A stretch of 22,048 nt of DNA from a virus. This document shows, piece by piece, positions 4,699-21,825 of this stretch. The first letter of the stretch is position 1; each line of letters starts with the position of its first letter. Below the pieces are notes generated by a model. That model was not told the origin of the DNA, did no database searches, and saw only the letters and a list, made by a program, of their open reading frames with translations. Both the position numbers and the translations under genes were made by a program. The stretch spans positions 1 through 22,048 of the IMG/VR virus record IMGVR_UViG_3300008108_005188. One strand, 5' to 3'.

Positions 4699-4814
4699 CA
4701 GACTTAATCTACGGTTTGATATTGTCCGGTGTGACGTTTGTTGGCATCATGGCACTGGTCATCGTGATTGGTAGAACCATTGGACGACTGTTTGGCCCTA
4801 GAGAAGATAGATGA
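4695..4814 (+). CDS. 39-aa single-pass membrane peptide
   Basis: A 40-codon ORF (39 aa) that exactly fills the space between clamp and dpdA. Its ATG overlaps the clamp TGA (ATGA, 4695-4698) and its TGA overlaps the dpdA ATG (4811-4814). Residues 4-27 are one hydrophobic helix (LIYGLILSGVTFVGIMALVI), followed by a basic tail (GRTIGRLFGPREDR). The precise double overlap makes it very likely translated. Function unknown; it sits in the replication/DNA-modification run. Confidence 0.7.
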   Translation: MTDLIYGLILSGVTFVGIMALVIVIGRTIGRLFGPREDR

Positions 4815-6304
4815 CTGAGCGTGATGATTTAACTGCCAAGCAAAAGGACTATGCGGTTTTCTTGCCGGCTATCTCGGGATTCTATGCCACATTCATAGGC
4901 AAGCAAAGAGATCCTGCAAATGGTCCTTATGTGGATCCTGCTAGGTTTCCACCTGGCATGACTGACATGGAGCAGTTGAACTGGCTCAATGCCAAGAAAA
5001 GCATATTCCCTTATCGTTACAGTCTTTACTCCGGAGGACACGCCAATCTTGATCTGGCCAAACAGGACTGGTCCGAAGACATGGTTAGGAATCGCATCGA
5101 CTCAGATCCTGATACTGTGATACTGGGCGACTCCGGAGGATTCCAGATTGCCAAGGGAAAGTGGGAAGGTGATTGGCGTGCCGGATCCGGCTGTGCGCGG
5201 GCACAAAAATACAGAGAATCCAGTCTGCGTTGGTTGGATAATATTTCTAACTATGCCATGACCTTGGATATTCCCACTTGGGTCATACACGATCGCGAAG
5301 CCAACAGCAAGGTTGGAAACTTCCAGTCAGGGCAAGAACTGGTAGATGCCACCAAGTACAACAACGACTTCTTTATGGCCAATCGCCGCGGCATCAACAA
5401 CGGTGGCACACGCATATTGAATGTGTTGCAAGGTGACAATCATCGTGCTGCCGATGATTGGTATGATACCATGAAACATTACTCGGATCCTGGTCGCTAT
5501 CCCACAACACATTTCAATGGCTGGGCCATGGGTGGACAAAACATGGCCGATATGGAACTGATACTGCGCCGATTGGTTACCTTACGCTATGACGGATTGT
5601 TACAACAAGGCGTTCATGATTGGATGCACTTTTTAGGCATCAGTAAACTAGAGTGGAGTTGCCTACTCACAGACATACAGCGTGCCATCAGGCGCCATGT
5701 CAATGCCAACTTTACCATCAGTTATGACTGTGCAAGCCCATTCCTGGCCACTGCCAACGGTCAGGTCTATTACGAAAGTATTTTCGAGCACGATGGCAGA
5801 TTCAGTTATCGTATGGCTCCTTCAGCCGATGACAAGAAATATTCCACAGATACCAGACCCTGGGGCACAGGTGTCATAGCCGATGGCATCTATGAACGTT
5901 GGGAAGATTCGCCGGTGAGCCAAATGCTTCGTATGCGAGATATTTGCATATACCGACCGGGCGATCTAAATAAAGTAGGCAAGGAAGGCAACACATCGTG
6001 GGACAGTTTCAGTTACGCACTTCTCATGGCACATAATGTTTGGACACATATCCGCGCCACGCAGGAAGCCAACCGGCGTTATGATTCAGGTGTGATACCA
6101 GAGATGTTGCGCAATCAGATCAGCGGAGACACTTTCCGTGACATAGTAGAAAGGATTTTTTCTGCGCCCACCCAAGATGATAGCCTGGCCATCATTGATC
6201 ATTATCACAGTTACTGGATGGAGATCATTGGTGTAAGGGGATTCAAAGGCAAAAAGGCCAAAAACGCCAACACTAAATTTAATGAACTTTTTACCATTAG
6301 TTAG
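4811..6304 (+). CDS. dpdA: DpdA-like DNA 7-deazaguanine transglycosylase (TGT superfamily)
   Basis: 497 aa. Core tRNA-guanine-transglycosylase features appear in order: GDSGGFQ with the catalytic-type Asp107, LDIP at 152-155, NVLQGD (204-209) in the position of VQGG, GWAMGG (237-242) like the GYAIGG turn, and SYDCASP with Asp306 where TGTs carry the second catalytic Asp. The usual CxCxxC zinc site is not evident, unlike tRNA TGTs. Phage DpdA proteins belong to this superfamily and swap guanine in DNA for a 7-deazaguanine base. FolE, QueD, QueE and a YhhQ-like transporter in the same window support a DNA role rather than tRNA. The start overlaps the preceding peptide (ATGA). Substrate base and sequence specificity cannot be read. 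Confidence 0.85.
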   Translation: MTERDDLTAKQKDYAVFLPAISGFYATFIGKQRDPANGPYVDPARFPPGMTDMEQLNWLNAKKSIFPYRYSLYSGGHANLDLAKQDWSEDMVRNRIDSDPDTVILGDSGGFQIAKGKWEGDWRAGSGCARAQKYRESSLRWLDNISNYAMTLDIPTWVIHDREANSKVGNFQSGQELVDATKYNNDFFMANRRGINNGGTRILNVLQGDNHRAADDWYDTMKHYSDPGRYPTTHFNGWAMGGQNMADMELILRRLVTLRYDGLLQQGVHDWMHFLGISKLEWSCLLTDIQRAIRRHVNANFTISYDCASPFLATANGQVYYESIFEHDGRFSYRMAPSADDKKYSTDTRPWGTGVIADGIYERWEDSPVSQMLRMRDICIYRPGDLNKVGKEGNTSWDSFSYALLMAHNVWTHIRATQEANRRYDSGVIPEMLRNQISGDTFRDIVERIFSAPTQDDSLAIIDHYHSYWMEIIGVRGFKGKKAKNANTKFNELFTIS

Positions 6305-8950: not shown

Positions 8951-9941
8951 ACGATACATAATCACTGGCGGGTCGGGCTACATTGGCAGTCATACGGCCA
9001 GAGCCTTGCGGCTCCACGATCCCGACTGCAGTATCTGGATCATTGATCGCCAGTTGAGACCGCACACGCTAAAGGGTGTGGATCTGCATACCGAAAGTTG
9101 TTTTGCTGATGCCATGACTTTGGAATGCATAGTTGATTATCAGCCCACGGCTGTGATACATTGTGCTGCGGATCATGTGGTGCCCCACAGCGTGACTGAT
9201 CCTGATCGATTTTATCTCAACAATGTTGTCAAAACACACAGTTTGTTGAGCGTGCTACGGCGTATCAAGCAGCCTCCTCGAGTACTGTTCAGTAGCACAG
9301 CAGCGGTATATGGCAACAATGAAAACGTGCCCATCGAAGAAACTGAACCGGTGGCTCCCATCAATGCCTATGGCAATACCAAAGTTGCCATAGAAAATAT
9401 GCTGGCAGATTACAACCGCGCATATGGTCTGGACTCGGTATGTTTTAGATATTTCAATGCAGCCGGTGCCGAACCCAATGATCATGATCTGGGACAGCCC
9501 TGGGGCGCTAGCCACATAATCGCAAGGATACTGGAAAGCTATCTTGCACACCAACTGTTTACCTTGTATGGTCAGGACTATGACACACCCGACGGAACCT
9601 GCATCAGAGATTATGTACACGTCTGGGACATAGCACAAGCACACATCTTGGCTTTGGATTATCTCGATCGCTGTCCTGGACATCATGTGTTTAATCTTGG
9701 CACAGCACAAGGGATCAGCAACCAGGAAATCATCCAAACTGTGGCTGAAAAATATGGTGCATTTGATCTCATGGTAGATAACCGTAGAGCCGGTGATCCT
9801 GCGAGATTGGTAGCCAGCAACAGCCGAGCCCGAAAACTACTGGGCTGGGTGCCACGCTACAGCGACCTAGATACCATAATTGAATCAGCGTATGAATGGT
9901 ATCACCAAAACTATTGCGAAAACATCAAAGAAAGTGTATAA
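8931..9941 (+). CDS. galE: UDP-glucose 4-epimerase-like NAD-dependent sugar epimerase
   Basis: 336 aa from GTG 8931 (AGGA 6 nt upstream), within the end of the glycosyltransferase gene; E. coli GalE is 338 aa. The extended SDR fold is clear: TGGSGYIGSH (12-21) binds NAD, the catalytic SST lies at 121-123, and the Y-x3-K pair is Tyr147/Lys151 (YGNTK). RYFNAAGAEP and DGTCIRDYVHV are diagnostic for GalE. It interconverts UDP-glucose and UDP-galactose (or N-acetyl forms) in the cytoplasm. Coupling to the glycosyltransferase suggests it provides the donor sugar. Interior ATGs further upstream are inside the neighbouring gene and were not used. Confidence 0.92.
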   Translation: MPKASTKRYIITGGSGYIGSHTARALRLHDPDCSIWIIDRQLRPHTLKGVDLHTESCFADAMTLECIVDYQPTAVIHCAADHVVPHSVTDPDRFYLNNVVKTHSLLSVLRRIKQPPRVLFSSTAAVYGNNENVPIEETEPVAPINAYGNTKVAIENMLADYNRAYGLDSVCFRYFNAAGAEPNDHDLGQPWGASHIIARILESYLAHQLFTLYGQDYDTPDGTCIRDYVHVWDIAQAHILALDYLDRCPGHHVFNLGTAQGISNQEIIQTVAEKYGAFDLMVDNRRAGDPARLVASNSRARKLLGWVPRYSDLDTIIESAYEWYHQNYCENIKESV

Positions 9942-9942
9942 T
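9914..9942 (+). promoter_or_regulatory. folE promoter placed for a leaderless mRNA
   Basis: TTGCGA (9914-9919), 17-nt spacer, and a perfect TATAAT (9937-9942) inside the 3' end of galE. The folE ATG begins 7 nt later (9950) with no Shine-Dalgarno, so transcription should start at or next to the start codon. Confidence 0.6.
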
Positions 9943-9949
9943 ACAAAGT

Positions 9950-10645
9950 ATGAGTGAAAAAACCCTAGCACAAGCACTGAGAGAAAAGATGCAGTCCGAT
10001 GGCAAAAGATTCTGGGCCGGAGACAACATCTCTGACTATATCCATTGGAGTGATCGCGAGCGCCTGATCAATGAAACCACTGCGGCATTTGAACAGGTGC
10101 TAGACAGTTTGTTGATCGATCGCGAAACTGATCCCAACAGTCGAGGCACAGCGCGACGCCTGGCCAAGATGTACTTCAATGAGATCATGGCCGGACGCTA
10201 TGATCCTGCTCCTGACTGTACTGCGTTTCCCAATGACTCTGCGGATCGTTATGAAGGTATGTTGGTAGTGCGGTCAGAGATTCGCAGTATGTGCAGCCAT
10301 CATCACCAACCTGTGACAGGTGTGGCCTATATTGGCATCCTTGCGGCACAGAAACTGATCGGACTTTCTAAGTACACACGCATCGCACAATGGTGTAGCC
10401 GCCGTGGCACACTGCAAGAAGAACTGTGCAACGATATTGCCAGAGAGATTATGAAAGCCACCGATTCAAAGGATGTGGGTGTTTACATACAGGCCACACA
10501 CGGTTGCTGTGAGAATCGTGGCATCATGGCCCATTCTAGCCTTACACAAACCACAGTTCTGCATGGTGCGTTCCGCACAGATCCTGCTGTGAAAAAAGAG
10601 TTTACTGACAATATCAAACTGCAACAGGACTTTGCACCCAGATAA
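9950..10645 (+). CDS. folE: GTP cyclohydrolase I
   Basis: 231 aa; turns GTP into 7,8-dihydroneopterin triphosphate, the first step to both folate and 7-deazaguanines. Zinc ligands match the E. coli enzyme: Cys115 and His118 in CSHHHQPVTG, and Cys186 in HGCCENRGI. IGLSKYTRI is the usual substrate-binding loop and the C-terminal QTTVLHGAF strand is present. ATG 9950 is used because the family begins here; it has no ribosome site and follows a promoter by 7 nt. Together with QueD, QueE and DpdA it most likely serves synthesis of the modified DNA base. Confidence 0.95.
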   Translation: MSEKTLAQALREKMQSDGKRFWAGDNISDYIHWSDRERLINETTAAFEQVLDSLLIDRETDPNSRGTARRLAKMYFNEIMAGRYDPAPDCTAFPNDSADRYEGMLVVRSEIRSMCSHHHQPVTGVAYIGILAAQKLIGLSKYTRIAQWCSRRGTLQEELCNDIAREIMKATDSKDVGVYIQATHGCCENRGIMAHSSLTQTTVLHGAFRTDPAVKKEFTDNIKLQQDFAPR

Positions 10646-10655
10646 GGATTGTTGA

Positions 10656-10862
10656 ATGCAGGTACGAGTTAAAGAAAACAACGAAGACTTTGGTAAATGT
10701 GGGTGCGGCCGTAGTCCCACAGGATTCTGTATTGGTTGGCACAATCTTTCAGAATCTGACTACCAGGAAAAATTATCTGATTATCAATTTAAAGAATGGC
10801 AACGTCAAGCCCAAGAAACTTGGAATGACAGTTGTACTAGTGACCGTGCTGACAAAATTTAG
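10656..10862 (+). CDS. CDGSH-like iron-sulfur protein (variant motif)
   Basis: 68 aa; AAGGA ribosome site at 10643-10647. Residues 15-29 read CGCGRSPTGFCIGWH. The CDGSH (mitoNEET) family uses C-x-C-x2-S/T-x3-P-x-C-D-G-S/T-H to hold a 2Fe-2S cluster with three Cys and one His. Here all three Cys and the His are present, but one residue is missing between Ser and the last Cys, Pro is absent, and CDG is CIG. The rest is a charged helix (QEKLSDYQFKEWQRQAQETW). Cluster binding is likely but unproven. A redox role beside folE and radical-SAM QueE is a guess. Confidence 0.55.
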   Translation: MQVRVKENNEDFGKCGCGRSPTGFCIGWHNLSESDYQEKLSDYQFKEWQRQAQETWNDSCTSDRADKI

Positions 10863-10959
10863 ACTGTGGCTGGCCCGAAAAATACTGGGCCAGCACTGTG
10901 CCTGCTATGCAATGGGTTATCATAAACTCTACGATTTCCGCAAGCGCAAAACTAAATAG
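10825..10959 (+). CDS. Possible 44-aa protein overlapping the CDGSH-like gene
   Basis: An ORF from ATG 10825 to TAG 10957-10959: hydrophobic N-terminal half (MTVVLVTVLTKFRLWLARKI), then HCACYAMGYHKLYDFRKRKTK with a basic end. It overlaps the preceding gene by 38 nt and fills an otherwise 100-nt gap. There is no good ribosome site, and an 8-bp hairpin lies within it, so it could be chance. Reported at low confidence as a small membrane-associated candidate. Confidence 0.35.
   Translation: MTVVLVTVLTKFRLWLARKILGQHCACYAMGYHKLYDFRKRKTK
10869..10894 (+). other. Strong 8-bp stem-loop after the CDGSH-like gene
   Basis: GCTGGCCC (10869-10876) and GGGCCAGC (10887-10894) form a perfect GC-rich 8-bp stem with a 10-nt loop. 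No T run follows, so it is not a standard intrinsic terminator. It may mark an mRNA 3' end, protect the mRNA, or be incidental within the overlapping 44-aa ORF. Confidence 0.5.
10953..10958 (+). promoter_or_regulatory. TAAATA late-promoter-like element
   Basis: CTAAATA in a short gap, 5 nt ahead of the ATG at 10964. T4-like late promoters have TATAAATA centred near -10. No sigma70 -35 is visible at the right distance. Confidence 0.4.
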
Positions 10960-10963
10960 TCAT

Positions 10964-11137
10964 ATGAAACCTGTGCCAGAATATTATTTTAGCAAAACAG
11001 AATGGGATAGACTTGGATGCGGTCCATTGCCGCCCGAGCGAGACAAAGACAATCCAGCAAATCAGGACAAAATTACACAAAGTCTAGAGTCCATGCAACA
11101 TTGGTTCAAAGATGATGCAACTAGTCAAGTATCGTGA
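10964..11137 (+). CDS. 57-aa acidic protein, unknown
   Basis: 57 aa from ATG 10964: MKPVPEYYFSKTEWDRLGCGPL, then a charged, Asn/Asp-rich part ending in QSLESMQHWFKDDATSQVS. No Shine-Dalgarno; TAAATA sits 5 nt upstream. A longer in-frame start at 10898 lies in the neighbouring ORF and lacks support. It overlaps the next gene by 26 nt. Function unknown. Confidence 0.5.
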   Translation: MKPVPEYYFSKTEWDRLGCGPLPPERDKDNPANQDKITQSLESMQHWFKDDATSQVS

Positions 11138-11264
11138 TGCTGGCTTGCCCACGCACACTTATTTTTGGGTCGACCAAGAAAATCGTGTGATTGGGCCTTA
11201 TTTCAACTCTGAGCAAGAAGCACAAGATTGGTTGGCACAGAATAGTAGCAGTGAAGAATTGTAG
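11112..11264 (+). CDS. 50-aa protein, unknown
   Basis: An ORF of 50 codons with tandem ATGs (11112, 11115): MMQLVKYRDAGLPTHTYFWV, then DQENRVIGPYFNSEQEAQDW and an acidic end. The pattern of a 'Y/F-W-V-D ... I-G-P-Y-F-x-S-E-x-E-A-x-x-W' mini-domain looks like a genuine beta-beta-alpha fold, and codon use matches neighbours. It lies directly ahead of the tmRNA. Function unknown. Confidence 0.5.
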   Translation: MMQLVKYRDAGLPTHTYFWVDQENRVIGPYFNSEQEAQDWLAQNSSSEEL

Positions 11265-11267
11265 TTT

Positions 11268-11570
11268 AATGCCTTGACAGAAAGGTGTTGCGGACTCGGG
11301 TTCGATTCCCGACACCTCCACCAAAAGCATATTGTAAGAACGCATGAGCAGGTTCTATACTACCGCTGGTTACGCCAATCGTAAGTGAGTGTAGGCAGTA
11401 TGCTTTTGATGGGGGTGACTTGGTTTCGACGTGACAAAAAGTATGAACAGGATCTACACGGTAGGCGATGACCGTAAATCAAGCAAAACCTATAAACGCC
11501 AACGACGACGTTTACGCAATGGCCGCTTAAGGCCTGCTGAGGGTGGAAGCCCAAGAAACAGAACTTCCAA
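11268..11570 (+). ncRNA. ssrA: Circularly permuted two-piece tmRNA
   Basis: The 3' acceptor piece comes first: T arm with stems 11296-11300/11308-11312 around TTCGATT, acceptor strand CACCTCC (11313-11319), A, and encoded CCA (11321-11323). The 5' coding piece starts at 11411 with GGGGGTG, which pairs with CACCTCC including the G3-U pair needed for alanine charging, then the conserved GGTTTCGACG. P2 forms between 11430-11436 (CGTGACA) and 11286-11292 (TGTTGCG). The tag reading frame 11498-11530 encodes ANDDVYAMAA and TAA. An H-type pseudoknot follows (GGG 11541-11543 with CCC 11550-11552; TGGAAG 11544-11549 with CTTCCA 11564-11569). The 11324-11410 insert is bounded by AAAAGCATA (11323-11331) and TATGCTTTT (11399-11407), which would extend the acceptor helix and be cut out. 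tmRNA with SmpB frees stalled ribosomes and tags the peptides. The 5' edge is approximate. Confidence 0.93.
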
Positions 11571-11571
11571 A

Positions 11572-11595
11572 AAGGCTGCTTCGGCAGCCTTTTTT
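11572..11595 (+). terminator. Intrinsic terminator of the tmRNA gene
   Basis: AAGGCTGC and GCAGCCTT form an 8-bp stem closed by the very stable C(TTCG)G tetraloop, followed by a T run (11590-11595). It lies 2 nt after the last tmRNA pseudoknot. Confidence 0.92.
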
Positions 11596-11620
11596 GTCAA
11601 CTGTAGCGTGTCTAAGGCGT

Positions 11621-11626
11621 TAAATA
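11621..11626 (+). promoter_or_regulatory. TAAATA late-promoter-like element
   Basis: TTAAATA between the tmRNA terminator and the exported AKP-rich gene, 49 nt before its ATG. Only a short hairpin (AGGG...CCCT, about 11632-11646) and a Shine-Dalgarno lie between, so this is a plausible promoter with a normal leader. Confidence 0.35.
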
Positions 11627-11675
11627 AGTGTAGGGATAGAAACCCTGCATAACTTAACCAAAGAAAGGTATTATC

Positions 11676-11867
11676 ATGAAATCAGTCGTTATCGCTGTTG
11701 CATCGTTGTTTGCCGTTTCTGCTTTTGCTCAGGCTCCGGCCCCTGCAAAGAAAGATGAAAAGAAAGCTGCTCCTGCCGCTGCTGCTGCTCCTGCTAAGAA
11801 AGAGGAAGCCAAGCCTGCTGCTCCTGCTGCCAAGAAAGACGAAAAGAAAGCTGAAGCAAAAAAGTAA
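11676..11867 (+). CDS. Exported Ala/Lys/Pro-rich low-complexity protein
   Basis: 63 aa. A signal peptide (residues 1-18, ending AFA before QA) is followed by a tail of alternating (A/P)-rich and KKDEKK/KKEE blocks without hydrophobic core, so the mature part is a charged, disordered periplasmic peptide. AAGAAAGG at about 11661-11668 serves the ATG. Similar short AKP-rich exported proteins are common in betaproteobacteria. The stop TAA follows directly on A AAA AAG (11858-11864), a strong bacterial -1 slippery heptamer, and the -1 frame stays open for 77 codons (separate entry). Role unknown; it may be host-derived cargo together with the porin. Confidence 0.75.
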   Translation: MKSVVIAVASLFAVSAFAQAPAPAKKDEKKAAPAAAAAPAKKEEAKPAAPAAKKDEKKAEAKK

Positions 11868-12097
11868 GAGCCAGATCTCGGGTCTGGGGCGGCAGAGTTG
11901 TTGTCAAGTTCAAGCCCGCAGATTTGGAAGATGGCGGTGGAGATCTAATTCAGTATTTGGATATCCATCAGGGTTATAAAAAGCCTAAAATTGCAAGATC
12001 GCAGGGGTTGATCCAATCCCACGCAGATTACATCAAATTTAGGCTGTCCCTAGCCCGTGCTTTAGCAGTAGAATCTGTAGAACAAAAGGTAACCTAA
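11864..12097 (+). CDS. Open -1 frame downstream of a slippery heptamer (possible frameshift extension)
   Basis: Read in the -1 frame from GTA at 11864, 77 codons are open to TAA at 12095-12097, in the loop of a terminator. There is no ATG or GTG start in the frame, only an internal TTG (near 11917) without ribosome site. The sequence looks protein-like: GGRVVVKFKPADLEDGGGDL, LDIHQGYKKPK, then a helical DYIKFRLSLARALAVESVEQ tail. A stem (11871-11875 with 11883-11887) begins 6 nt after the heptamer, the spacing used in dnaX. A -1 slip would fuse this to the signal peptide and AKP linker. Alternatives are a decayed gene fragment or a sequencing indel. Confidence 0.4.
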   Translation, partial: VRARSRVWGGRVVVKFKPADLEDGGGDLIQYLDIHQGYKKPKIARSQGLIQSHADYIKFRLSLARALAVESVEQKVT

Positions 12098-12113
12098 GGG
12101 TTACCTTTTTTTT
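12084..12113 (+). terminator. Intrinsic terminator ahead of the porin
   Basis: AAAAGGTAACC (12084-12094) and GGTTACCTTTT (12099-12109) pair perfectly around TAAG, followed by an eight-T run. The stop codon of the -1 frame is in the loop. Confidence 0.92.
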
Positions 12114-12186
12114 GCGGTGCAGTTAAAACAGGCATACATACTAGTTGACTGGGGCAACCCTATCATTAACCTTATAAGGAAATACA

Positions 12187-13200
12187 ATGAAAAAACTACT
12201 AACAGCAGTACTTTTGGCCGGTGCTACCACAGTATCTGCACAAAATGTCACAGTGTACGGTGTTATCGACACAGGTGTACAGAACTACAACACCGGTGCC
12301 GCTAGTTTGACCCGCGCCACTGATGGCATCCTGGCTACCAGCCGTTTGGGTTTTCGTGGAACAGAGGACCTGGGTGGTGGACTTACAGCAGGTTTTGTAT
12401 TAGAAGGCAAAGTTGTTCCTTCCGCAGGAACTCTTGGTTCTACAGCAACAACAGGACAGGCATTTGACCGTGAGTCATCCATATTTGTTGCAGGCAAGTT
12501 CGGAGAGATCCGTGCAGGCAAAACTGACATTTCTGCGGCTGAAGGTGTAGACACCTTGACCACGCAGGCCGGCAACTTGGGTTTCCACGCCAGCAACGGT
12601 ACAGCAGTTGAGCTAGGTGGCGATGCTGCCAGCACAGTTCGTTATACCACGCCCAAGTTCAGCAACTTCTCTGCACAGATTGGTCGTTCAACCAATGCCA
12701 ACGGCGCTACCACAGACGCTGGCACAGAGCTCACAGGTTACAGCGTGACCTATGACGACGGCAAGTTGAAACTGATCGCAGGTCAGGTAAAATTAAACGC
12801 AGCTACAACAGTGGCCGAGCGTGATTTCACTGCCTACGGTGCAGCCTATGACTTTGGTGTTGCCAGCGTTGGTGCATCATATGCATCAGGTGACGTATCT
12901 ACCACAGGCGATGTCAAGAACACAGTGAAACAAGCTTCCATCCGTGTTCCTCTCGGAGCAGGTTTGGCAGCACACGGTGTTTATGCAATTACCAAAGATG
13001 GTACACAGGCATCAGCAGGTGAAGGCAAAGGTTATACCGTTGCTGTTACCAAAGCACTGAGCAAGCGTACTTCGGTATATGCTGCTTACACAGCCGTCAC
13101 CAACGAAGCCAATGCCACAATGAGCATGGTAGGAACCACAGCAGGTACAGCAGGTCTTGATCCCAAGGCAACAACTGTTGGTATCAGCCACACGTTCTAA
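12187..13200 (+). CDS. Outer-membrane porin, betaproteobacterial general-porin type
   Basis: 337 aa. Signal peptide 1-18 (cleavage TVSA before QNVTVYG). The mature N-terminus VTVYGVIDTGVQNYN, the SRLGFRGTEDLGGGLTAGFVLEGK strand-turn-strand, the GKFGEIRAGK segment and the final GISHTF with C-terminal Phe (BAM signal) are hallmarks of 16-stranded porins of Burkholderiales and relatives. Length is normal and no break is visible, so it should make a trimeric diffusion channel. AAGGAAA precedes the ATG. It is bounded by terminators on both sides, which suggests an autonomously expressed cargo gene. Porins occur in lambdoid prophages (for example Lc of PA-2); one in a T4-like genome is unusual. It may replace a receptor porin or change nutrient uptake. 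Confidence 0.93.
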   Translation: MKKLLTAVLLAGATTVSAQNVTVYGVIDTGVQNYNTGAASLTRATDGILATSRLGFRGTEDLGGGLTAGFVLEGKVVPSAGTLGSTATTGQAFDRESSIFVAGKFGEIRAGKTDISAAEGVDTLTTQAGNLGFHASNGTAVELGGDAASTVRYTTPKFSNFSAQIGRSTNANGATTDAGTELTGYSVTYDDGKLKLIAGQVKLNAATTVAERDFTAYGAAYDFGVASVGASYASGDVSTTGDVKNTVKQASIRVPLGAGLAAHGVYAITKDGTQASAGEGKGYTVAVTKALSKRTSVYAAYTAVTNEANATMSMVGTTAGTAGLDPKATTVGISHTF

Positions 13201-13216
13201 TCTTTATTGTTCCAAT

Positions 13217-13242
13217 AAAAACCCGCCTGGTGCGGGTTTTTT
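13217..13242 (+). terminator. Intrinsic terminator of the porin gene
   Basis: AAAACCCGC and GCGGGTTTT pair around CTGGT, followed by six Ts. It lies 17 nt after the porin stop. Confidence 0.92.
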
Positions 13243-13244
13243 AT

Positions 13245-13250
13245 TAAATA
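13245..13250 (+). promoter_or_regulatory. TAAATA late-promoter-like element of the cupin gene
   Basis: TTAAATA immediately after the porin terminator and 7 nt before the cupin ATG (13258). Nothing else that could drive the gene lies between the terminator and the start codon, and no Shine-Dalgarno exists. Confidence 0.5.
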
Positions 13251-13257
13251 CACAATC

Positions 13258-13605
13258 ATGACACAATTACGATACAACCAATTTGACATCGGCGGAGAAG
13301 TGATCAAGGACAATGAAACATATCGTTTGACAGATAACAAGAGTCTAAAAAATCTTGTGTTGAGTCAAACTGTGCTGCATCGCGATCAACACACTCGTGG
13401 GCATCGCCACCCTGGACAAGAAGAAGTCTATTTCTTTATCAGAGGAAATGGTAAAATGATTGTGGGAGAAGAGACCGATCAGCCTTTTCCTGTGAGTGCA
13501 GGAGATGTTATACTGATAGAAGATGGTGTGTTCCATCGTGTGATCAACGACGGTGACACAGACTTGATTTTCAATTGTGTGTTTGATGGCAAAAGAAATC
13601 ATTAA
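13258..13605 (+). CDS. Single-domain cupin
   Basis: 115 aa. One cupin barrel: motif 1 is GHRHPGQEEVYFFIRGNG with His, His and Glu metal ligands; motif 2 is SAGDVILIEDGVFHRVIN with the last His. Such small cupins bind Fe, Mn, Zn or Ni and include sugar isomerases, dioxygenases, decarboxylases and pure binding proteins, so the reaction is unknown. There is no ribosome site and a TAAATA lies 7 nt ahead, so it may be a leaderless message. It stands just before the QueD/YhhQ run; a role in trimming the 7-deazaguanine base or in sugar nucleotide metabolism is possible but unsupported by residues. Confidence 0.8.
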   Translation: MTQLRYNQFDIGGEVIKDNETYRLTDNKSLKNLVLSQTVLHRDQHTRGHRHPGQEEVYFFIRGNGKMIVGEETDQPFPVSAGDVILIEDGVFHRVINDGDTDLIFNCVFDGKRNH

Positions 13606-13648
13606 CTAATACAATCAAACAGCGGCCTTTATTTGGCTATCAACCCGC

Positions 13649-13678
13649 TTTACAAATTCTGCTAGCCTATGCTAAACT
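13649..13678 (+). promoter_or_regulatory. Promoter of the queD operon
   Basis: TTTACA (13649-13654), 18-nt spacer, and an extended -10 TGCTAAACT with TAAACT at 13673-13678. A normal leader follows with AGGGAG (about 13684-13689) before the ATG at 13698. The TGC before the -10 recurs at the promoters near 21210 and 21466. Confidence 0.5.
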
Positions 13679-13697
13679 TACATAGGGAGAATTTGTT

Positions 13698-14201
13698 ATG
13701 TCAAAGCAATCACGCATCTATCAGTATGTCAGTACCAAAGAGTATCACAATGCCTTTCCCTGCGCTTATAGACAATGGCGTGCCGACAGCCATTGTAACT
13801 TGATACATGGTTATGCCTTTTCAATGAAGTTTTATTTTGGCACAGATGAGTTGGATACCAGGAACTGGGCCGCCGACTACGGTGGACTCAAAGAACTAAA
13901 AGGCATATTAGAAGATCAGTTTGACCATACATTGTTGGTGGCACAGGACGATCCCGAATTGGCCACATTCAAACTGTTGCAAGAAAAGAAGATGGCCAAA
14001 CTTACCATCCTGCCTAGGCTGGGCTGCGAAGGATTGGCCGATATGCTTTACAAATATATCAATGGAGTGTATATTCCAGATATGTGGGGACCAGGCGAAG
14101 CCGAAAGATTGTGGTGCTATCGCGTGGAAGTTCGTGAAACACAGTCCAACATGGCTTTCCGTGAAGGGCATCGCGAATGGAACGAAGATCTATTTCTATA
14201 A
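13698..14201 (+). CDS. queD: QueD-like 6-carboxytetrahydropterin synthase
   Basis: 167 aa. Converts dihydroneopterin triphosphate (FolE product) to 6-carboxy-tetrahydropterin in 7-deazaguanine synthesis. Seen: the CNLIHGY block with catalytic-type Cys33 and zinc-type His37, DYGGLKELKGILEDQFDHTLL (the DFG-L...DH segment, His77), and a VEVRET strand with the substrate-binding Glu. The canonical HGH is HGY (Tyr39), and the His of the usual F-x-A-A-H-R is Tyr24 (FPCAYRQW), so two of three usual zinc ligands seem replaced, perhaps by His32. It may be a divergent QueD or a related enzyme with another reaction. It starts a run that continues into the YhhQ gene 9 nt later. Confidence 0.8.
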   Translation: MSKQSRIYQYVSTKEYHNAFPCAYRQWRADSHCNLIHGYAFSMKFYFGTDELDTRNWAADYGGLKELKGILEDQFDHTLLVAQDDPELATFKLLQEKKMAKLTILPRLGCEGLADMLYKYINGVYIPDMWGPGEAERLWCYRVEVRETQSNMAFREGHREWNEDLFL

Positions 14202-14210
14202 GGAGAAATC

Positions 14211-14831
14211 ATGTTAGATCGAATACTATCAGGCGTTGATCGTGCGCTGGCCTACAAGCTGATGCTGGCCCACATCATTATTATCGCAGTCAGCAATTAT
14301 ATCGTACAGTTCAAATTCAACATTTTTGGTCATCCCTTGGCCGCTGCCGCATTTACCTTTCCCTTGGTAGTGGTCTTGACAGATCTCACAGTAAGGCTTA
14401 TTGGCAAGGACACTGGTCGCGCTGTGATCAACCTGGCATTTATTCCTGCTATCCTTGTGAGTATGCTGGTGGTAAAACTAGGTGGTGCTCCAGACTCTGT
14501 GGCATTCCGTATTGGTCTGGGTTCTGGCGTGGCATACTTTATCAGTAACCTGTTGGATGTGTATGTGTTCCAGTACATCAGAGAAAAATTTGCCACTTGG
14601 TGGTATGCACCAGCACTGAGCGCAGTGGCATCAACATTTATTGATACCTATGTGTTTTTCTTCACAGCATTTTACAAAGGCGCCAATGAGTTCATGGCTG
14701 CCAACTGGTTCACTGTGGCCACCAACAACAGTTGGGCCAAGATCTTGGTAAGCCTGTTGGTCATACTGCCTTTTTATGGCATCCTGCTCAACAGACTGCA
14801 GAAACGTTTTGAACCTTCTAAGTCTGCATGA
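14211..14831 (+). CDS. yhhQ: YhhQ-family queuosine-precursor transporter
   Basis: 206 aa (E. coli YhhQ 221 aa), with about six membrane helices. The family signature AAAFTFPLVVVLTDLTVRLIGKDTGRAVI lies near residues 43-71, and SGVAYFISNLLDVYVFQYIREK and STFIDTYVFFFTAFYKG follow. Known members import preQ0/preQ1 across the inner membrane; related genes are known beside dpdA in some phages. Here it coexists with folE, queD and queE, so the phage may combine synthesis with uptake. AAGGAG precedes the ATG, and the stop overlaps the next ATG. Confidence 0.88.
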   Translation: MLDRILSGVDRALAYKLMLAHIIIIAVSNYIVQFKFNIFGHPLAAAAFTFPLVVVLTDLTVRLIGKDTGRAVINLAFIPAILVSMLVVKLGGAPDSVAFRIGLGSGVAYFISNLLDVYVFQYIREKFATWWYAPALSAVASTFIDTYVFFFTAFYKGANEFMAANWFTVATNNSWAKILVSLLVILPFYGILLNRLQKRFEPSKSA

Positions 14832-15019
14832 ACAGTGTAGTAAAAATATGGGCTCGGGCCACAGGTCATCTCATGGGCAATACCGATGATGACCGGCCCG
14901 ATGTTCCTATACTGACTTTACGAGAAGCAAAGATAGCCCTGTTCCTTAAAACGTTCTGGGTGATCATACACGTGGTAACCTGTTTTTTCATCATGGCAAA
15001 CATCATTAGACATTGGTAA
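14828..15019 (+). CDS. Small membrane protein, unknown
   Basis: 63 aa, ATGA overlap with the transporter. Residues 1-36 are hydrophilic (WARATGHLMGNTDDDRPDVP), and 37-60 form one membrane helix (ALFLKTFWVIIHVVTCFFIM). Coupled translation with the YhhQ gene suggests an accessory membrane partner, without proof. Confidence 0.6.
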   Translation: MNSVVKIWARATGHLMGNTDDDRPDVPILTLREAKIALFLKTFWVIIHVVTCFFIMANIIRHW

Positions 15020-15027
15020 AATCTATC

Positions 15028-15396
15028 ATGAGCGAACTTGAATCTGCATTAGACTCTAAACTGGCACCTTGGACCGAGATTGAATACCGCACTCGGCACT
15101 ACTGGGTATTTCTGGATGCTTATCCTGTTACCGAAGGACATCTGTTGTTTGTGCCTGTGTCGCAAGGTGCCGAAGATCTATGGGAATGTTATCGCGCAGC
15201 TTATAAGTTTGGGTTTGATGGCATCGAGTCCGGTCGCTGGCAGGGTTTCAATGTGGGCCAGAATGTGGGCCAGGCCGCAGGTCAAACAGTGATGTATCCA
15301 CACGTACACATGATTCCACGCCGGCATGGAGACATGCCTGATCCACGCGGCGGAGTGCGTCACGTGATTCCAGAAAAAGGAAACTATAAAAAATGA
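15028..15396 (+). CDS. HIT-family nucleotide hydrolase
   Basis: 122 aa from ATG 15028 (a TTG at 15013 is possible). The C-terminal signature GQTVMYPHVHMIPRRHGDMPDP matches the HIT branch with GQTV-P-H-x-H-x-H-L-I-P-R-R and PRGGVRHVIPEK; members cut Ap4A-type dinucleotides or nucleotidyl phosphoramidates. The first His of the triad is Tyr here, while the middle His (nucleophile) and the last are kept. The N-terminal part has the usual FLDAYPVTEGHLLFVP strand pair. It sits in a coupled run with a phosphoribosyltransferase, pointing to nucleotide metabolism, perhaps of the 7-deazaguanine or of damage alarmones. Confidence 0.85.
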   Translation: MSELESALDSKLAPWTEIEYRTRHYWVFLDAYPVTEGHLLFVPVSQGAEDLWECYRAAYKFGFDGIESGRWQGFNVGQNVGQAAGQTVMYPHVHMIPRRHGDMPDPRGGVRHVIPEKGNYKK

Positions 15397-15935
15397 CCGA
15401 AAAAATCTATGTGAACCACACAGCCAATCTGGTGAGAGAGATCCTGCGCCAGATGCATCAAGATTCCTGGAAACCCGACTACATCGTAGGCATCACACGC
15501 GGCGGACTAGAACCTGCCAACATGATAAGCCAGTATTTGGAAATACCCATGCAGGCCTTGAACATCAGTCTGCGTGACTCAACCATGGGGCCAGAAAGCA
15601 ATCTTTGGATGGCGGAAGATGCCTACGGGTATTTTCGCACAGACGATTTGCCCGGCTGCAGTAACGTACATCATCGCAAAAACATCTTGATAGTGGACGA
15701 CATCAATGATTCGGGTGCAACCATGCAGTGGATCCGAGATGATTGGCAAGCAAATTGTATGCCCACGGATCCGGTATGGTCGGAAGTTTGGAATCACAAT
15801 GTGAAATTTGCTGTGTTGGTTGATAACCAAAGCAGTGAGTTCAAAAACATAGACTATTCGGGCATGAAGATTGACAAAAGCCGCGATCCGCGCTGGATCG
15901 TTTTTCCCTGGGAAGAATGGTGGATCAAAAGTTGA
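15393..15935 (+). CDS. Type I phosphoribosyltransferase
   Basis: 180 aa, ATGA overlap with the HIT gene. The PRPP-binding loop ILIVDDINDSGATM is at about 98-111, and the DYIVGITRGGLEPANMISQYL segment (29-49) is the N-terminal strand and helix of hypoxanthine/xanthine-type enzymes. These transfer ribose-5-phosphate from PRPP to a purine base. Base specificity cannot be told. A salvage role for guanine released by DpdA exchange, or for a deazaguanine base, is a reasonable inference from the operon. No regulatory (PyrR-like) extension is seen. Confidence 0.88.
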   Translation: MTEKIYVNHTANLVREILRQMHQDSWKPDYIVGITRGGLEPANMISQYLEIPMQALNISLRDSTMGPESNLWMAEDAYGYFRTDDLPGCSNVHHRKNILIVDDINDSGATMQWIRDDWQANCMPTDPVWSEVWNHNVKFAVLVDNQSSEFKNIDYSGMKIDKSRDPRWIVFPWEEWWIKS

Positions 15936-16018
15936 CAAAGCGACAGATTCGTTATATTATCATAGCAGTGCTGTATATGGCTGGCTTTGCTGGCGCAATT
16001 TGGATAAATCTTCAATGA
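15932..16018 (+). CDS. 28-aa membrane peptide
   Basis: TTG at 15932 overlaps the preceding TGA (TTGA) with GGTGGA 7 nt upstream; an in-frame ATG at 15917 would give 33 aa. The product, MTKRQIRYIIIAVLYMAGFA followed by GAIWINLQ, is a basic start plus one membrane helix. Its TGA overlaps the next ATG (16015-16018). The double overlap, as with the 39-aa peptide before dpdA, argues that it is made. Confidence 0.55.
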   Translation: MTKRQIRYIIIAVLYMAGFAGAIWINLQ

Positions 16019-16185
16019 CACACTGGAAACTGCCTGTAGAAGAACTTGAAGGAGACTTGGTGATAACATTGCCACAAGACTTGTTGGATGCTGCTGAATT
16101 GCAGATCGGAGACACACTGACCTGGCACATTGACGAGCAAGGTCGTGTGACCTTAAACAAAAAGGAAGCAGATGGAAAAGATTAA
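16015..16185 (+). CDS. SpoVT/AbrB-like (MazE-type) small DNA-binding protein
   Basis: 56 aa. GDLVITLPQDLLDAAELQIGDTLTWHIDEQGRVTLNKKE has the swapped-hairpin AbrB pattern (I-T-L/I-P-x-x-L-L-x-x-x-x-L-x-x-G-D-x-L-x-W). Such proteins are transition regulators or antitoxins. No toxin gene stands next to it; the neighbours are a membrane peptide and QueE. The last residues overlap the queE start by 14 nt. A phage regulator or orphan antitoxin is likely. Confidence 0.65.
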   Translation: MTHWKLPVEELEGDLVITLPQDLLDAAELQIGDTLTWHIDEQGRVTLNKKEADGKD

Positions 16186-17047
16186 AATAGCAGAACTGTT
16201 TTATAGCGTACAAGGCGAAGGTAGATACATGGGTGTGCCCAGTGTGTTTATGCGCACATTTGGTTGTAACTTTCGTTGCAAGAAGTTTGGCAGGCCCAGG
16301 GACGAAGAGATAGAAGGTGCCAATCCTGAAGTGGCTGCTGTGATGACTCGCATATCCGAATTCAAAAGTTATAACGAACTGCCCTTGGTTTCCACCGGCT
16401 GCGATACCTATGCTGCCATCTATCCCGAGTTCAAGGATCTCAGTCCTTATCGTTCACCCGAAGAAATCGTCACAGACACCATGGCCATGCTACCTTATCG
16501 ACAGTGGCGCGATGAACACTTGGTGATCACTGGCGGTGAACCTTTGCTGGCCTGGCAACAGATCTATCCTGTGTTATTGAGCAGACCCGAGATGCTGAGG
16601 CTCAAAGAAATCACGTTTGAAACCAATGGTACCCAACTGCTGTATCCAGAATTCAGACACTTTCTATTGAACTGGACTCTGAATCCCACATTTGGTCGTA
16701 GAGGACCCAATGCGCTGACTTTCAGTGTGAGTGCCAAACTTACGTGTTCTGGCGAGTCGCGCGAAGATGCCATACGACCCGATGTGGTCATGCAGTATCA
16801 AGAAATAGGGCATACATATCTTAAATTTGTCATTGCCCAGGAACAAGATGCAGAAGAAGCATTAGAAGTATTGGAGATCTATCGCCGTGAAGGATTCACA
16901 GGCGATGTTTATCTCATGCCTGTGGGCGGTGTGGAAAGTGTGTACAGTCTAAACAATCGCCGCGTGGCAGAGTTGGCCATGCAACACGGCTTGCGCTACA
17001 GTGATAGACTACAGGTGCCACTGTTTAAAAATGAGTGGGGCACCTAG
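16172..17047 (+). CDS. queE: QueE-like 7-carboxy-7-deazaguanine synthase (radical SAM) with an insertion
   Basis: 291 aa; AAGGAAG lies 5 nt before the ATG. QueE turns 6-carboxy-tetrahydropterin into 7-carboxy-7-deazaguanine. ELFYSVQGEGRYMGVPSVFMR is the family start, followed by FGCNFRC (Cys32, Cys36). The third Cys, normally two residues on in C-x2-C-DT, is here in GCDTYAA at Cys77, after about 40 inserted residues. VITGGEPLL (SAM-binding GGEP) and FETNGTQ are intact, and the C-terminal VYLMPVGG strand is present. The enzyme is about 70 residues longer than compact QueEs. It likely still holds the cluster through Cys32/36/77. Confidence 0.85.
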   Translation: MEKIKIAELFYSVQGEGRYMGVPSVFMRTFGCNFRCKKFGRPRDEEIEGANPEVAAVMTRISEFKSYNELPLVSTGCDTYAAIYPEFKDLSPYRSPEEIVTDTMAMLPYRQWRDEHLVITGGEPLLAWQQIYPVLLSRPEMLRLKEITFETNGTQLLYPEFRHFLLNWTLNPTFGRRGPNALTFSVSAKLTCSGESREDAIRPDVVMQYQEIGHTYLKFVIAQEQDAEEALEVLEIYRREGFTGDVYLMPVGGVESVYSLNNRRVAELAMQHGLRYSDRLQVPLFKNEWGT

Positions 17048-21445: not shown

Positions 21446-21474
21446 TTGACCAAAAAATCGTGTTTTGCTATAAT
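21446..21474 (+). promoter_or_regulatory. Consensus promoter of the GIY-YIG gene (leaderless start)
   Basis: TTGACC, 17-nt spacer ending TTTTGC, perfect TATAAT (21469-21474). The ATG at 21481 is 6 nt later, about where transcription should begin; no ribosome site exists. Confidence 0.8.
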
Positions 21475-21480
21475 ATGCTT

Positions 21481-21825
21481 ATGGACAGTAAAAAAGCACC
21501 CCGCAAAAAACGCTCAGATCGCACCCACATCGTTTACAAGATCGTGTCGGGCACAGACTTCTACATTGGTGTCACTGCCAAGACTGAGTCAACTGTGCTC
21601 AAGAGTGTGCGTGTTCGTATGAACAAGCATCTGTATCGTAGCCGAAGTGAAGACAAATCCTGGGCCTTGTACGAAGCCTTGCGTGATCGTGGCCCTGGTG
21701 CTTTTGCTTACTCGATCGTGGCAGTGGTGCGTGGCAAGAGTGAAGCACATTCGGTAGAGCGTGCTTTGATACGCGAACTGCGTCCTAACCTGAATACTGA
21801 TACTCGTGAAAGGAAAACACAATGA
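21481..21825 (+). CDS. GIY-YIG nuclease-domain protein
   Basis: 114 aa from ATG 21481; an ATG at 21475 overlaps the expected +1 boundary and is less likely. After a basic N-terminus (MDSKKAPRKKRSDR) comes a single GIY-YIG domain: THIVYKIVSG and FYIGVTAK are the two signature strands, RVRMNKHLYRS carries the catalytic-type Arg, EAHSVERALIREL the metal-binding Glu and PNLNTD the closing Asn. Stand-alone GIY-YIG proteins include homing endonucleases and repair or restriction enzymes. There is no DNA-binding extension and no intron in sight. Its TGA overlaps the next ATG. Confidence 0.85.
   Translation: MDSKKAPRKKRSDRTHIVYKIVSGTDFYIGVTAKTESTVLKSVRVRMNKHLYRSRSEDKSWALYEALRDRGPGAFAYSIVAVVRGKSEAHSVERALIRELRPNLNTDTRERKTQ

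Follow-up and report, generated by a model that had tools for sequence, protein, structure and literature searches.

The DNA analyzed here, a 22,048-base virus record from IMG/VR (hereafter, the window, meaning the whole stretch), contains at positions 11260-11595 of the plus strand a complete circularly permuted (two-piece) transfer-messenger RNA (tmRNA) gene. This is very probably a phage-borne gene of the betaproteobacterial class that was assembled via recombination among phage tmRNAs. An ARAGORN search identifies a single permuted tmRNA in the window (11231-11621, tag ANDDVYAMAA). A cmscan search detects matches to RF01850, beta_tmRNA (11201-11595, 152.1 bits, E 2.9e-47, model positions 1-331), and to RF04321, tmRNA_permuted (11260-11530, 151.4 bits, E 1.7e-30), for which the Rfam cut-offs are 84 and 47 bits, respectively; these E-values exclude a chance match. 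The gathering cut-off of the betaproteobacterial class is exceeded across the full model, and a permissive Rfam scan of the window yields no second RNA family above its cut-off. An earlier, sequence-only reading of this DNA had called a complete permuted tmRNA, with the acceptor piece preceding the coding piece, and proposed a covariance-model search as a check; ARAGORN and the two Rfam models all agree with this call. The start given in that reading, 11268, is about 8 bases late because TGTAG (11260-11264), which pairs with the downstream CTACA, constitutes the outer strand of P2.

All elements of the tRNA-like domain are present, namely a 7-bp acceptor stem with the G3-U70 pair, the T arm, CCA, and a D loop without a D stem, and so are those of the tag frame, i.e., the alanine resume codon, the AA ending and the stop codon (Table 1). 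The pseudoknot is a prediction that comes through the covariance-model match only. The stop codon of a small upstream open reading frame (ORF; 11115-11264) overlaps the acceptor piece, inside the P2 strand. For the region 11324-11420, which includes the spacer, folding predicts a closed hairpin (-25.9 kcal/mol), and, by analogy with known permuted tmRNAs, the 87-nt spacer is expected to be removed from the transcript. The terminator-like hairpin at 11573-11595 is not listed by a simple terminator scan. As far as can be judged from the sequence, the intact tag, the G3-U70 pair, the T and D loops and the compensated helices speak in favor of a functional tmRNA. That the RNA is instead a decoy or an inhibitor is very improbable given that the tag frame, the resume codon and the stop codon, along with G3-U70, have all been retained.

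The tmRNA is considered to be phage-borne because the window is an IMG/VR virus record that encodes a T4-type DNA polymerase (phrog_262, E 1e-189), as expected from the earlier assignment to a T4-like phage. The polymerase is nearest to those of the jumbo phages Phosso and Atu_ph07 (46-49% identity). The record also encodes a 5'-3' exonuclease (phrog_107), a phrog_12062 protein that, judging by its position and size, may be a sliding clamp, GTP cyclohydrolase, QueD and QueE. Neither capsid nor tail genes were met among the proteins searched, the 22-kb record being a fragment. The tmRNA gene lies mid-contig, between phage genes, and occupies the same place in three sibling contigs, L002, L003 and L010; in the window, L002 and L003, it is followed by a gene for a small Lys/Ala-rich protein and then by a porin gene. 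This shared position implies a phage gene rather than the edge of a chromosome. Prophages often integrate in ssrA, and a host ssrA at the attachment site of a prophage might thus be mistaken for a phage gene. Such an origin is extremely unlikely in the present case given the mid-contig location, identical in L002 and L003, and given that no integrase was met among the proteins searched. Similarly, the viral provenance of the record and its phage genes speak against a bacterial chromosome, a concern raised by the sequence-only reading.

Comparison of the sibling phages reveals the mosaic structure of the gene. The window is 95% identical to L002 over 6.7 kb, 97% identical to L010 over 10 kb and about 89% identical to L003, and all three differ sharply from it within the tmRNA. 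The T loop is TTCGATT (beta-type) in the window vs GGCAGTR in all three siblings, so that the T-loop class, alpha-type or beta-type, changes between close relatives. The GGCAGTR loop is close to the alphaproteobacterial consensus GGCGGUA and is common in viral contigs; its interpretation as a product of decay was rejected on these grounds. The acceptor stem exists in three versions (GGGGGTG/CACCTCC, GGGGACG/CGTCTCC and GGGCCAT/ATGGTCC), all fully paired and with G3-U70 kept; it is the same in L003 and L010. In both strands of P2, the window is similar to L003, and L002 is similar to L010. The third version of the acceptor stem is found with both P2 types, which requires recombination or parallel change. 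The spacer together with ACCA is identical between the window and L002 (91/91 positions), and the tag is alike in the window, L002 and L010 but is ANASNDEVFALAA in L003. Sliding identity along the gene confirms the patchwork: it is L003-like at 11260-11300, L125-like at 11280-11420, again L003-like at 11440-11460, similar to L002, L286 and L287 at 11460-11520, and L287-like at 11520-11580.

The L125-like part belongs to a 164-bp cassette (11280-11443) that shares 95.7% identity with the tmRNAs of two phage contigs, L125 and L132, both with the tag ANDEQFALAA. In the stretches compared by blastn, the window has no match to these contigs beyond the cassette. Contigs with the tags ANDERFALAA and ANDEQFALAA were considered as possible carriers of bacterial ssrA; this was rejected because their gene lists and the PHROG hits of L104 and L125 indicate phages, with PhoH-like, exonuclease and endolysin proteins encoded in L125. 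Because both acceptor strands flank the spacer within the cassette, its transfer as one segment keeps the stem paired, which follows naturally from the permuted order. More generally, swaps would be easy in a permuted gene because the spacer is enclosed by both the acceptor stem and P2, and one segment carries both strands of a helix; we infer that the permuted order could be a driver of module swaps. The permuted tmRNAs of these environmental phages might well constitute a common pool that recombines, with modules that carry complete helices exchanged among unrelated phages.

Several observations weigh against the assembly of a working gene by recombination. P2 of the window includes three non-standard pairs in each covariance-model alignment. 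Promoter-like sites are no more frequent than expected by chance. In the cofold matrix, matched acceptor and coding pieces are not always the best pair: the value for the matched pieces of L003 is -7.5, vs -8.6 with the coding piece of L010, which has the same acceptor stem. Finally, all sibling contigs are metagenome assemblies, so that chimeras of strains may contribute to the mosaic. If the mosaic were in its entirety an artefact of assembly from mixed strains, conserved short words such as CCACCAAAAGCAT and TTTTGATGGG could have served as bridges. This is unlikely, however, because the contigs come from separate metagenome datasets, the helices are paired in all four, and the same cassette is found in L125 and L132, two contigs of different datasets.

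With regard to the ultimate source, the data are best read as favoring a recombining family of phage tmRNAs over a recent capture from the host. The sequence-only reading proposed capture from a betaproteobacterial-type host; the betaproteobacterial class is upheld but direct capture is not, given that pieces of the gene match other phages. A host ssrA captured recently and kept whole would be consistent with the beta_tmRNA class and with the nearby porin of the Omp32/PorB kind, which suggests a betaproteobacterial host. However, separate parts of the gene match separate phages, the siblings have a gene at this position that contains other modules, and none of the GTDB contigs scanned contains an exact copy of the 34-nt T arm/acceptor word, which makes such a capture quite unlikely. 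A plasmid search produced two short matches only. An original host capture that preceded the recombination among phage tmRNAs is plausible.

Permuted tmRNAs in phages, including T4-like ones, have already been published, and the new part is the mosaic structure. A two-piece tmRNA was described in the T4-like phage Melnitz, and 53 of 133 unique phage tmRNAs are two-piece (PMC9004378); the tmRNA of the T4-like Stenotrophomonas myophage Marzo was assigned by its authors to the Betaproteobacteria class (PMC8928761; MZ326868). Four deposited isolates exceed the beta_tmRNA cut-off, namely XacN1 (107.8 bits), UF_RH6 (104.4), Marzo (94.6) and QDWS595 (93.8). The earlier statement that phage tmRNAs are one-piece is contradicted by PMC9004378 and by these isolates. 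Melnitz resembles the phage analyzed here in that it is a T4-like myophage with a two-piece permuted tmRNA and a host, OM43, from the former Betaproteobacteria; however, its tmRNA clusters with ssrA of alphaproteobacteria and has a linked glutamine riboswitch (PMC9004378). No riboswitch was matched beside the window tmRNA, the only signal being a sub-threshold Trp_leader elsewhere. Marzo shares the T4-like background and the beta_tmRNA match, but its tmRNA is located among tRNA genes and has the tag VAANDDSYTVRIAA according to ARAGORN. XacN1, UF_RH6 and QDWS595 also carry beta-type permuted tmRNAs that pass RF01850 (unannotated) but are phages of other types, with the ARAGORN tags ANANTFDYALAA, ANDTSFDVRLAA and ANDNVYAAAA, respectively. 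Compared with the betaproteobacterial tmRNAs of RF01850, the gene order, T and D loops, P2, tag start and terminator of the window gene fit the model end to end; in contrast, the window gene is phage-encoded, its spacer exceeds that of the model, and it forms a mosaic with modules of other phages.

In a pattern-selected set of loci, nearly all from viral contigs, a simple structural filter yields 152 permuted tRNA-like domains, 87 of them distinct. The presence of G3-U70 in all filtered loci is partly built in because TCC and GGG were constant parts of the search patterns, a bias from which the loci found with covariance models are freer. Permuted tmRNAs were detected in 9 of 50 records fetched via the porin or the phrog_12062 protein and in 5 of 50 fetched via the cyclohydrolase, many of these records being fragments. 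Two of the permuted phage tmRNAs (L377 and L380) have the T loop TGCGAAT, which is neither alpha-type nor beta-type. In Ruegeria phage vB_RpoS-V10 (L294, 44-477), a GOLLD RNA (151.4 bits vs the cut-off of 150) is encoded just upstream of the tmRNA; both RNAs are unannotated in the record.

By inference from these features, two cleavages of the transcript, one at the acceptor 3' end and one where the coding piece begins, would eliminate the 87-nt spacer, and the two RNAs would then be joined through the acceptor and P2 helices. The host alanyl-tRNA synthetase, recognizing G3-U70, together with EF-Tu and SmpB could use this RNA for the rescue of stalled ribosomes, whereby the ANDDVYAMAA tag would be added and would target the products to host proteases. 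Searches of 18 phage records that carry a tmRNA or belong to siblings, the window among them (some of these are fragments), detected no SmpB, with control genomes positive; use of the host SmpB is therefore assumed. Any benefit to the phage, including the one proposed for late infection, is likewise presumed, as are the processing, charging and tagging.

Table 1. Features of the permuted tmRNA locus in the window
Feature	Positions	Strand	Basis or remark
164-bp cassette: T arm, acceptor 3' strand, spacer, acceptor 5' strand, D loop	11280..11443	+	
Acceptor piece: P2 5' strand, T arm, acceptor 3' strand, ACCA	11260..11323	+	RF04321 match from 11260
P2 5' strand	from about 11260	+	sequence reading
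T arm, loop TTCGATT	11296-11312	+	sequence reading
Acceptor 3' strand CACCTCC	11313-11319	+	sequence reading
Encoded ACCA	11320-11323	+	sequence reading
Intervening transcribed spacer, 87 nt, closed by AAAGCATA/TATGCTTT	11324..11410	+	predicted fold
Coding piece: acceptor 5' strand, D loop, P2 3' strand, P5, tag, post-tag region	11411..11572	+	
Acceptor 5' strand GGGGGTG, G3-U70 pair retained	11411-11417	+	
D-loop region TTGGTTTCGAC	after acceptor 5' strand	+	sequence reading
Tag reading frame ANDDVYAMAA, resume codon GCC, stop TAA	11498..11530	+	ARAGORN and sequence
Intrinsic terminator-like hairpin GGCTGC-TTCG-GCAGCC and T6	about 11573..11595	+	sequence reading; inside RF01850 match
Small Lys/Ala-rich protein, signal-like N-terminus	11676..11867	+	directly downstream of tmRNA

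Genes similar to that of the small Lys/Ala-rich protein are found downstream of the tmRNA in L002, L003, L125 and L132; those in the otherwise dissimilar L125 and L132 are divergent in sequence. The porin (12187-13200, plus strand) is a complete Gram-negative protein (Pfam Porin_4, E 2.5e-40) with Omp32 as the nearest solved structure. Porins 89-99% similar to it are encoded in eight other viral contigs, and the isolate phages have no close porin, with one weak match of 38% over 28%. None of the 74 candidate stretches from GTDB genomes encodes a relative of the porin, and identification of the host via this protein failed. The porin might serve to replace or mask a receptor. The plus-strand region 9896-17047 encodes GTP cyclohydrolase, QueD, QueE and a Vut_1 transporter (vitamin uptake type), a deazaguanine (preQ0) pathway set that may serve DNA modification. 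No PHROG or Pfam family matches the 497-aa protein at 4811-6304, which, as a guess, might be a transferase of the same pathway. The ORF at 21460-21825 (plus strand) encodes a protein similar to GIY-YIG homing endonucleases (phrog_19446, E 7.7e-07; phrog_5123, E 6e-05).

The tmRNA gene described here corrects the notion of phage tmRNAs as one-piece RNAs and provides another example of the betaproteobacterial class, and the sibling set represents a natural swap experiment that shows which parts of a tmRNA change as units. These observations suggest that trees of whole phage tmRNA genes, which have been used to argue for host jumps, may mix several histories; for a mosaic gene, a single tree would be misleading.
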